In this document: one piece after another, positions 2 through 1,793 of the stretch
Position numbering within the stretch: position 1 is the first letter of the stretch
Layout of the letters: each line of letters starts with the position of its first letter
DNA from: Eubacterium sp.
GTDB taxonomy: Bacteria; Bacillota; Clostridia; Oscillospirales; Acutalibacteraceae
DNA: 13,273 bases
Assembly (NCBI GenBank): GCA_024696725.1
Contig: JAILGO010000107.1
Location: 1 to 13,273 of the forward strand
Direction: 5' to 3'
Program-made: the position numbers and the translations under genes
Notes under the pieces: generated by a model
The model's database searches: none
What the model saw: only the letters and a program-made list of their open reading frames with translations
What the model was told of the DNA's origin: nothing

Positions 2-154
2 GTATTTGCCTATCCGCCCGACATTCCGCTGATTGTGCCGAATGAAGTGATTTCCCGGGAAATGTGCGACTACATCGCAGCACTCATCACAAGCGGCGTC
101 AACGTCATCAGCGACAGCGGTAATTTGCCAAAGGTATTGACAAAAGCAAGCTGA
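2..154 (+). CDS. Orn/Lys/Arg decarboxylase family protein, C-terminal end (partial)
   Basis: Only the last 50 residues are in the window; the gene starts upstream. The reading frame begins at base 2 and stops at TGA 152-154. The fragment contains AYPPDIPLIVPNEVI followed by a helix ending in ISDSGNLPKVL. The Y-P-P-x-I-P-[LI]-[LIV]-V-P-x-E-x-[IV] signature is typical of the C-terminal domain of PLP-dependent Orn/Lys/Arg decarboxylases (fold type I), which make polyamines or cadaverine/agmatine in the cytoplasm. The PLP lysine and catalytic core lie outside the window, so the substrate cannot be told. No terminator follows the stop. The -35 box of the next promoter is formed by the last codons of this gene (Leu-Thr, ttg aca), so some read-through into scfA is possible. 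Family assignment is fairly sure; specificity is unknown. Confidence 0.82.
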   Translation, partial: VFAYPPDIPLIVPNEVISREMCDYIAALITSGVNVISDSGNLPKVLTKAS

Positions 155-165
155 TAAATTATAAT
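137..165 (+). promoter_or_regulatory. Consensus sigma-A promoter for scfA
   Basis: TTGACA (137-142), a 17-base spacer and TATAAT (160-165) match the sigma-A consensus at all 12 positions. The predicted start is near base 172, giving a leader of about 25 nt that carries AAGGAG at 183-188, 8 nt before the scfA ATG. The -35 lies inside the end of the decarboxylase gene. This predicts strong, probably constitutive transcription of the SCIFF precursor. Confidence 0.85.
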
Positions 166-196: not shown

Positions 197-343
197 ATGA
201 AGAGAATTAACACTTTAAGCTCAAAAAATCTTTGCGAATCTGCTAAGAACGGCGGCTGTGGCGAGTGCCAGACCTCCTGCCAGTCAGCAAGCAAGACCTC
301 TTGCTCGGTTGCTAACCAGAAATGCGAGCAGCTTAAGAAGTAA
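197..343 (+). CDS. scfA: SCIFF ranthipeptide precursor (six Cys in about 45 residues), variant core
   Basis: A 48-residue peptide, too short for most gene callers. It begins MKRINTLSSKNL, the conserved SCIFF leader that binds the maturase's recognition domain. It continues with GGCGEC-QTSC-QSAS-KTSC and ends VANQKCEQLKK. Cysteines are at 13, 21, 24, 28, 36 and 43. SCIFF precursors are processed by the adjacent radical SAM enzyme to carry Cys-to-Thr thioethers (ranthipeptide class). Positions 21, 24, 28, 36 and 43 match the canonical Cys ladder. Position 32, normally Cys, is Ser (agc, one base from tgc), and position 37, normally Thr, is Ser (tcg); the extra Cys13 lies in the leader. AAGGAG sits 8 nt upstream of the ATG. 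The gene is immediately upstream of scfB and has its own strong promoter. Identity is sure from leader, core and neighbour; whether the usual crosslink can form is doubtful. Confidence 0.93.
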   Translation: MKRINTLSSKNLCESAKNGGCGECQTSCQSASKTSCSVANQKCEQLKK

Positions 344-355
344 ATCAATTACAAC

Positions 356-385
356 GGGCAGGTTTTAGCCTGCCCTATTTACTTT
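356..385 (+). terminator. Weak intergenic terminator/attenuator between scfA and scfB
   Basis: A perfect 7-bp stem, GGGCAGG (356-362) with CCTGCCC (369-375), closes a TTTTAG loop. It is followed by a T-rich but interrupted tract (TATTTACTTT). It lies 12 nt after the scfA stop and 13 nt before the scfB Shine-Dalgarno sequence. It would let most transcripts end after the precursor and a minority read into the maturase, giving more peptide than enzyme. The hairpin is clear; partial termination is inferred. Confidence 0.6.
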
Positions 386-398
386 ATTAGGAGAAAAA

Positions 399-1793
399 AT
401 GATTCACTCGTATAAAATGAACGGCTACAACATCGTTATCGACGTTAACAGCGGCGCGGTTCACAGCGTCGACGAGGCAACGTTTGATATAATAAATATG
501 TACGAAAGCCGAACAAAAGAAGATATAAAAAAATACATACTTGAAAAATACGCGGGGAGCGACGACGTTACTGCGGAGGATATCGACGAATGCTTCGCCG
601 ATATTGAAGCGCTTAAGGCTGACGGCCGTTTATTCTCCGAGGATGTATTCGAGGCTTCGGCGGCTGACTTCAAAAAGCGTCAGGGCGTTATTAAGGCTAT
701 CTGTCTTCATGTCGCGCACGGATGTAACCTTAACTGTGAATACTGCTTTGCAGGCAAGGGTGAATACGGCGGAGCGGACAAGGGGCTTATGAGTCTTGAA
801 ACAGGAAAAAGGGCGCTCGACTTTCTCGTTGAAAACAGCGGTACAAGGCGAAACCTCGAGGTAGACTTTTTCGGAGGAGAGCCGCTTCTCAACTGGGACG
901 TATGCAAAAAGCTTGTTGAATACGGTCGCTCTCTTGAATATAAGCACAACAAGAATTTCCGCTTTACGCTTACGACAAACGGCTTGCTCGCAGACGACGA
1001 GGTAATTGAATTCTGTAATAAAGAAATGGGAAACGTCGTGCTTTCACTCGACGGCAGACGAGAGGTCCACGACAGGCTGAGAAAAACGCCGAGCGGAAAA
1101 GGCAGTTACGATTTAATCGTCGACAAATTCAAAAAATTCGCCGACACGAGAAACCAGAAGGATTATTATATCAGAGGAACGTATACTGCGTTCAACAAGG
1201 ACTTCGCAAGCGATTTAATACATATTGCCGACCTCGGCTTTAAAGAGCTTTCGGTTGAGCCTGTCGTTTGCTCTCCCGACGAGCCGTGGGCGCTTAAGGA
1301 AAGCGATTTACCCGTTCTTAAGGAGCAGTATGAAATTCTTGCAGACGAGATGCTAAAGCGCTACAGAAACGGAAACGGCTTTACCTTCTATCACTATATG
1401 ATAGACCTTGAGGGCGGACCGTGTATTGTTAAAAGAGTCAGCGGCTGCGGAGTCGGTACGGAATATCTTGCCGTAACGCCGAGCGGCGACCTCTTCCCCT
1501 GTCACCAGTTCGTGAGCGAGGAAAAATTCAAGCTCGGTAACATTTACGACGGAATTACAAAGCCCGGAATTCTTGAGCAGTTCAGAGAGTGTAACGTATA
1601 TTCCCATAAGGAGTGTAAGGACTGCTTTGCAAGGCTTTACTGCTCCGGCGGCTGTGCGGCTAACGCATACCACACGACGGGAAGCGTAAACGGGGTATAT
1701 GCTCTCGGCTGTGAGCTCCACAAAAAGCGCATAGAATGTGCTATTATGCTTAAGGTAGCGGAGGCTGAGGAAGGCTTAAACGTTGAATACTAA
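399..1793 (+). CDS. scfB: SCIFF radical SAM maturase (SPASM domain, thioether-forming)
   Basis: A 464-residue radical SAM peptide-modifying enzyme that installs Cys thioether crosslinks on the SCIFF precursor encoded just upstream; it is cytoplasmic. The N-terminal 90 residues (starting MIHSYKMNGYNIVIDVNSGA) form a PqqD-like RiPP recognition domain that binds the leader. The radical SAM CX3CX2C motif is C109-C113-C116 (GCNLNCEYCF), followed by FFGGEP (157-162) for SAM binding. The C-terminal SPASM region has the Cys set expected for two auxiliary [4Fe-4S] clusters: C350, C368, C398, C406, C409, C415, C419 and C438, including CKDCFARLYCSGGC. Length and domain order match characterised maturases (the CteB/Tte1186 type). 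AGGAG at 389-393 is 5 nt before the ATG. The enzyme looks intact, so the odd precursor is not explained by decay of its partner. Not visible here are the secDF genes that I recall often lying beside SCIFF loci. Confidence 0.95.
   Translation: MIHSYKMNGYNIVIDVNSGAVHSVDEATFDIINMYESRTKEDIKKYILEKYAGSDDVTAEDIDECFADIEALKADGRLFSEDVFEASAADFKKRQGVIKAICLHVAHGCNLNCEYCFAGKGEYGGADKGLMSLETGKRALDFLVENSGTRRNLEVDFFGGEPLLNWDVCKKLVEYGRSLEYKHNKNFRFTLTTNGLLADDEVIEFCNKEMGNVVLSLDGRREVHDRLRKTPSGKGSYDLIVDKFKKFADTRNQKDYYIRGTYTAFNKDFASDLIHIADLGFKELSVEPVVCSPDEPWALKESDLPVLKEQYEILADEMLKRYRNGNGFTFYHYMIDLEGGPCIVKRVSGCGVGTEYLAVTPSGDLFPCHQFVSEEKFKLGNIYDGITKPGILEQFRECNVYSHKECKDCFARLYCSGGCAANAYHTTGSVNGVYALGCELHKKRIECAIMLKVAEAEEGLNVEY

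Follow-up and report, generated by a model that had tools for sequence, protein, structure and literature searches.

The window, by which we mean the whole stretch of 13,273 bases analysed here, is an entire contig (C60), one of 195 in its assembly, and it carries a SCIFF precursor gene followed by the gene for a radical SAM maturase. The features of this locus are as follows.

137..165, + strand: sigma-70-type promoter match (TTGACA, 17 nt, TATAAT) agreeing at 12 of 12 consensus positions, a consensus match only
197..343, + strand: SCIFF precursor of 48 aa (translation and profile search), with Cys at 13, 21, 24, 28, 36 and 43, Ser32, Thr34 and Ser37
290..292, + strand: codon 32, agc, encoding Ser where characterised SCIFFs have Cys
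305..307, + strand: codon 37, tcg, encoding Ser where characterised SCIFFs have Thr
356..375, + strand: terminator-like hairpin between precursor and maturase
399..1793, + strand: SCIFF maturase, radical SAM/SPASM, 464 aa
723..746, + strand: radical SAM cluster motif C109-x3-C113-x2-C116, invariant in the rows compared
1446..1712, + strand: C350, C368, C406, C409, C415, C419 and C438, marked out by cysteine conservation, which we take to be the cysteines of the SPASM motif
1452..1454, + strand: Val352, two residues after Cys350, which tracks precursor type

The precursor scored 73.7 bits against TIGR03973 (cut-off 50) and 75.7 bits against PF13165 (cut-off 27), and since it lies above both curated cut-offs it is a SCIFF and not a chance reading frame. 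It has the six cysteines in about 45 residues that characterise these peptides, and a SCIFF maturase adjoins it, as membership of the family asks. A search of solved structures with the precursor returned just two weak, unrelated hits (E 0.68). The promoter match ends 31 nt upstream of the start codon, and the intergenic stretch from 344 to 398 folds at -16 kcal/mol (z -3.53 against 200 shuffles); the hairpin within it is plausibly an attenuator, a layout that would yield precursor in excess over enzyme. Further along the window, between 6802 and 12023, are two large proteins with signal-like starts and, by eye, similar Lys-rich C-terminal segments, neither of which has a Pfam match above the gathering cut-off.

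The maturase scored 734.5 bits against TIGR03974 (cut-off 425) and has all the CX3CX2C and SPASM cysteines of that family, bearing out the statement in the preliminary description that this enzyme is intact. Residues 1 to 455 of its 464 align with CteB (5wgg) at E 5.2e-172, and an AlphaFold model (mean pLDDT 93.3) superposes on 5wgg_A with a TM score of 0.90 over 455 columns, so that the protein is predicted to adopt a CteB-like fold that includes the N-terminal peptide-recognition domain; the domain order of CteB follows the available passages of PMC6231123. The PapB model gave 264.8 bits on the same protein, under its cut-off of 340.

Reviews, in the passages available to us, report a Cys32-Thr37 link formed in vitro in Tte1186a and CteA and a Cys32-Thr34 link, through the gamma carbon, in CteA made in E. 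coli. The published acceptor is therefore disputed, Thr37 in vitro versus Thr34 in E. coli co-expression; the donor in both kinds of study, according to the same passages, is Cys32. The cysteines of the window peptide, at 13/21/24/28/36/43, differ from the usual set of 21/24/28/32/36/43. Compared with the characterised ranthipeptides the window peptide lacks the donor Cys32 and the acceptor Thr37, each replaced by serine, and retains the acceptor Thr34. The preliminary description had placed all of these residues correctly and had held both crosslink positions to be changed, which is right for Cys32 and Thr37 and does not extend to Thr34, the other published acceptor. With the donor gone, neither Cys32-Thr37 nor Cys32-Thr34 can form. 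Judged from the sequence, the Cys32 thioether must be impossible in peptides of this kind, here called the Ser32 type, and the staple must lie elsewhere or be absent.

An error in sequencing or assembly, or a decaying gene, could in principle produce such a peptide, and the assembly does contain another SCIFF copy at the end of a contig. We regard this explanation as wholly improbable, given an intact maturase and the conservation of the Ser32 type across the genus of the window and in other genera. SCIFFs were found in 71 of 80 genomes of the genus, the window's own included, and 51 loci, out of 73 match rows, were read. All 51 have Ser32, Thr34 and Cys36, 49 have Ser37 and two have Ala37, and 50 have Cys13. 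The exception, L051 (G005:C57, at a contig edge), has Lys13 and Gly21 and four cysteines in its sequenced part, and keeps Ser32, Thr34 and Ser37. An error at base 290 is thus excluded in practice, Ser32 being universal among the loci read and encoded in six of the 51 by TCA in place of AGY. Change between AGY and TCA takes at least two substitutions, and Ser32 has been held through it; serine itself therefore seems to be what is kept. The core (residues 21 to 43) had an uncorrected pN/pS of 0.02 at a pS of 0.66 over the 51 loci, indicative of strong purifying selection in the genus. The earlier suggestion that this lineage has a SCIFF type of its own is supported. The second copy in the assembly (L002, G000:C188:7792-7935) is 92% identical to the first and is also Ser32/Ser37. 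It follows an Orn/Lys/Arg decarboxylase gene, and the window starts within a related reading frame. Since the assembly has only one maturase over the family cut-off, contig C188 may come from a sibling strain or be a broken duplicate.

Wider comparisons drew on 408 loci, six of them untyped: no SCIFF was read in L229 and L260, L293, L335 and L357 are not SCIFFs, and L168 is cut short. The 402 typed loci reduce to 302 distinct peptides; 335 loci had a long enough maturase, and 320 entered the tree after identical and untyped rows were dropped. Loci at the family level comprised the best-scoring matches listed, chosen low scorers and 116 found through the Ser32 DNA pattern, and this selection means that shares of the 302 distinct peptides should not be read as prevalences, for which we used the exact pattern in 391 genomes sampled from the class of the window. 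The collections overlap, so that some loci duplicate one contig and a genome may count twice, an effect limited by the distinct-peptide and clustered counts. L410-L412, also Ser32/Ser37, stand outside all counts.

SCIFFs are described as widespread in Clostridia in the available part of a review, and they occurred in 322 of the 391 class genomes. The exact Ser32 pattern with an AGY codon matched four of the 391, the window's own genome included, and the TCN form of the pattern matched none of them. Among named records the AGY pattern matched at least 119 stretches, at least 116 of them SCIFFs, under titles that include Clostridium aminobutyricum DSM 2634, Gallibacter intestinalis DSM 108706, Baileyella intestinalis, Mogibacterium kristiansenii, Mobilibacterium timonense, Alterileibacterium massiliense and Eubacterium brachy ATCC 33089. 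Many gut Clostridia have the Ser32 type, which is nevertheless in the minority: it is without exception in the one genus sampled in depth, occurs in several other groups and is rare in the class at large. The suggestion made at the outset that Ser32/Ser37 might prove common, which would have told against the preliminary reading, applies in part, since the pair is common within one clade and rare overall. One record titled Bacteroides sp. (JAMPEQ010000004.1, L346) bears the SCIFF of the window's genus and is probably mislabelled.

Across the 302 distinct peptides, Cys32 occurs with Thr37 in 177, Gly37 in 39, Ala37 in one and Ser37 in none, and Ser32 with Ser37 in 78, Ala37 in five and Thr37 in one; a single Val32 peptide has Ala37. 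In L167 (Ser32/Thr37) and L169 (Val32) the core is damaged at other positions too. The same pairing appears in the pattern-found SCIFFs, where the pattern fixed residues 28 to 36 and left 37 free: among the at least 116 loci listed, residue 37 is Ser in 111 and Ala in five. A protein search, of whose 1027 matches 120 were listed, gave with the query 54 peptides with Ser32/Ser37, two with Ser32/Ala37, 64 with Cys32/Gly37 and one with Arg32/Gly37. These tallies indicate that residues 32 and 37 change together and that Ser32 pairs with Ser or Ala at 37. Damaged cores, in which Cys36 is absent or residues 32 to 36 are altered, were seen in L141, L166, L167 and L169, from genomes of 1.0-1.8 Mb in the same family; L167 and L169 still adjoin a maturase. 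In L202, L212 and L218 Cys36 is replaced by Leu or Ile, and Cys32, Thr34 and Thr37 are kept. Two tandem SCIFF cores in one reading frame were found in each of L182, L185 and L187, from the class-level genomes G329, G487 and G644.

The preliminary description had viewed Cys13 as a relocated cysteine making up for Cys32, a view we reject. Among the 83 distinct peptides that have Ser32 with either Ser37 or Ala37, 65 lack Cys13 and 18 have it; Cys13 also occurs in 10 of 39 Cys32/Gly37 and one of 177 Cys32/Thr37 peptides, and stands together with Cys32 in 11 loci; L051, which lacks both Cys13 and Cys21, is still Ser32. Nor is the total of six cysteines maintained in the pattern-found Ser32 peptides, at least 116 of which were listed, with six cysteines in 60, five in 55 and four in one that is cut short. 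The proposal that Ser37 serves as a new acceptor is likewise weakened, Ala37 being found in five of the 83, which makes Ser37 an unlikely acceptor.

Natural variation also bears on the published conflict. Glycine has no gamma carbon. It occupies position 37 in 39 of the 217 Cys32 peptides, all 39 of which retain Thr34, whereas Thr34 is present in 215 of the 217 (and in 299 of all 302); Thr34 is thus favoured as the natural acceptor. The two Cys32 peptides with Val34 both retain Thr37. The pattern would fit a scheme in which Thr34 ordinarily accepts the link and Thr37 may stand in for it. The frequency of Gly37 beside Cys32, and the divergence between in vitro and E. coli work in the reviews as available to us, would also suit a different account, in which the physiological link involves neither residue 32 nor residue 37 and lies among residues kept everywhere (Cys21, Cys24, Cys28, Cys43 and the NQxC43 segment), so that Ser32 and Cys32 types give essentially the same product. 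None of the 302 distinct peptides lacks Cys24 or Cys28, one lacks Cys21, Cys43 is missing from a single truncated peptide, and Asn40 is kept in 299; Cys36 is lost in seven. We nevertheless consider this account unlikely, since Cys32 is the donor in both kinds of study as reviewed and is kept in 217 of the 302.

Mapped on a 320-maturase tree, the six types of precursor require 10 changes; after shuffling the mean was 127.9. Three main precursor types are tied to maturase lineage. Partners of Ser32 precursors (with Ser or Ala at 37) and of Gly37 precursors cluster together at support 100, nested among the Thr37 types and joined by a single Thr37 row (L079), and the Ser32 and Gly37 group was recovered with support 99 in a 66-row IQ-TREE analysis. 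L167 and L169 have maturases that branch with those of Thr37 precursors. The Ser32 type may be a clade, or the Gly37 type may have arisen from inside it; a single Ser32 clade is compatible with the data (p-AU 0.415), and several independent origins of Ser32 are unsupported, one origin not being rejected. L334, a Ser32/Ala37 peptide whose maturase has Val352, sits on a long branch with the Gly37 group. The SPASM cysteines showed 96-100% weighted conservation among Ser32-type maturases, and a maturase lies at most 1.5 kb downstream in 137 of 137 Ser32 (Ser/Ala37) loci with at least 700 bp of sequence (35 more had less).

Inside the Ser32 and Gly37 group, residues 352 and 120 are the most informative on type (0.82 bits each), and residue 352 is the one that is nearly invariant on both sides. 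All 112 maturases paired with Ser32 and either Ser37 or Ala37 have Val there. The 39 partners of Gly37 have Ser in 38 cases and Ala in one, and the 167 partners of Thr37 have Ala in 107, Cys in 32, Ser in 25 and Val in three; in L167 and L169 the residue is Cys. After clustering at 85%, Val352 was found in 65 of 65 Ser32 clusters and Ser352 in 36 of 37 Gly37 clusters. Independent pairs of Ser32 and Val352 number one on the 66-row tree and three on the 320-row tree, where two agree and one shows no difference, so that no sign test can reach 0.05; with so few origins of Ser32 and Val352, their link is not separable from descent. L079 (G161:C63) has a classical Cys32/Thr37 precursor directly before a Gly37-clade maturase with Ser352, a mismatch which implies that precursor and maturase types can part; a further SCIFF lies elsewhere in that genome, on a different contig, and a precursor swap is possible.

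Residue 352 lies two residues from Cys350, which we take to be an Aux I ligand, and by analogy with CteB would stand near the open site of that cluster. In CteB, as described in the available passages of PMC8326336 and PMC6231123, the Aux I cluster has an open site able to take a substrate cysteine. The conserved cluster cysteines, the maturase downstream of every Ser32 precursor with enough sequence, and the retention of Thr34 lead us to infer that Thr34 is joined by a thioether to Cys28 or Cys36, the two donors that the preliminary description had put forward with Ser37 as their acceptor. By this mechanism the leader would bind the N-terminal recognition domain, as in CteB; Cys28 or Cys36 would be brought close to the SPASM cluster, next to Val352, and joined to Thr34, the sole published acceptor that the Ser32 type retains; and Ser32 would take on a new role. 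We give about even credence to the whole of this reading, in which the window peptide and its maturase belong to a conserved SCIFF subtype that is unable to make the characterised Cys32 thioether and joins Cys28 or Cys36 to Thr34 instead. The naming of donor and acceptor is itself a guess from the residues that are left. Several points count against the reading: three maturases of Cys32/Thr37 precursors have Val352; Cys352 is found in the partner of the sole Ser32/Thr37 peptide (L167, whose core is damaged and whose maturase groups with the Thr37 types); precursor and maturase types are mismatched in L079; the origins of Ser32 and Val352 are too few; and in the pattern-found loci residues 28 to 36 were fixed by the DNA pattern itself.

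It is also conceivable, at somewhat below even confidence, that the Val352 clade of maturases has switched its chemistry or regiochemistry to make another macrocycle, either Cys28/Cys36-Thr34 or a bond at Ser32, with precursor residues 32 and 37 and maturase residue 352 acting as a product code. The chief competitor of the Cys28/Cys36-Thr34 thioether is a bond, or some other change, at Ser32. In the 58 loci with a residue other than Cys at 32 that were found without the Ser32 pattern, that residue is Ser in 57 (51 of 51 inside the genus and six of seven outside, the last being Val), a strictness which suggests that the Ser32 hydroxyl matters. Together with the codon change through which Ser was kept and the different residue 352 in Ser32-type maturases, it would fit a peptide with no thioether at all, in which another radical reaction (for example, on Ser32) takes place or free or metal-bound cysteines act. 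Such a peptide seems to us unlikely, given that the maturase retains the radical SAM and SPASM cysteines of an enzyme that forms thioethers and that the nearest solved structures are those of CteB.

We provisionally regard the Ser32 type as new. In the open-licence literature, as searched by titles, starts of abstracts and passages, with most subscription papers lying outside it, no description of a Ser32 SCIFF was found. The available part of PMC7738495 treats SCIFFs in pig isolates as highly homologous over positions 19-36, with no mention there of a Ser32 change. The three main precursor types in our survey stand beside a statement, in the available text of PMC5300114 on building protein families, that all clear precursor homologues appear functionally equivalent. 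With the Ser32 type, nature supplies substrates that lack the known donor, some of them encoded in named isolates, on which the action of the maturase could be tested. Precursor and maturase are both complete in Baileyella intestinalis RF-744-FAT-WT-3 (L340), whereas Clostridium aminobutyricum DSM 2634 (L405) and Gallibacter intestinalis DSM 108706 (L386) are assigned to the Ser32 type by their precursors, their maturases lying wholly or in part beyond the stretches analysed.

Among known systems, the closest is CteA/CteB (thermocellin) of Clostridium thermocellum, which also belongs to the SCIFF family and whose CteB resembles the window maturase in fold and sequence. CteA has the donor Cys32 and Thr37, whereas the window peptide has Ser32 and Ser37, and CteB has Ser at the position of Val352, its residue 344 when the Met of MIHKF is counted as 1. 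Tte1186a/Tte1186 of Caldanaerobacter subterraneus is likewise, in the accounts available, a SCIFF precursor with a radical SAM maturase, and its in vitro Cys32-Thr37 link cannot form in the window peptide. The Gly37-type SCIFFs share a maturase group with the Ser32 type, also lack Thr37 and in some cases have Cys13; unlike the window peptide, they keep Cys32, and their maturases mostly have Ser352, Phe441 and Thr108 where those of the Ser32 type have Val352, His441 and Gly/Asp108. PapA/PapB (freyrasin) and NxxcA are, as partially available sources describe them, radical SAM non-alpha thioether peptides, as SCIFF is, but with Asp/Glu or Asn as acceptors, unlike SCIFF. SCIFFs hardly vary over the segment Asn40-Gln41-x-Cys43, residues 40-43 of the window peptide, with Asn40 kept in 299 of the 302 distinct sequences, and this segment resembles the Asn20-Cys23 link that a review, in its available part, gives for NxxcA.
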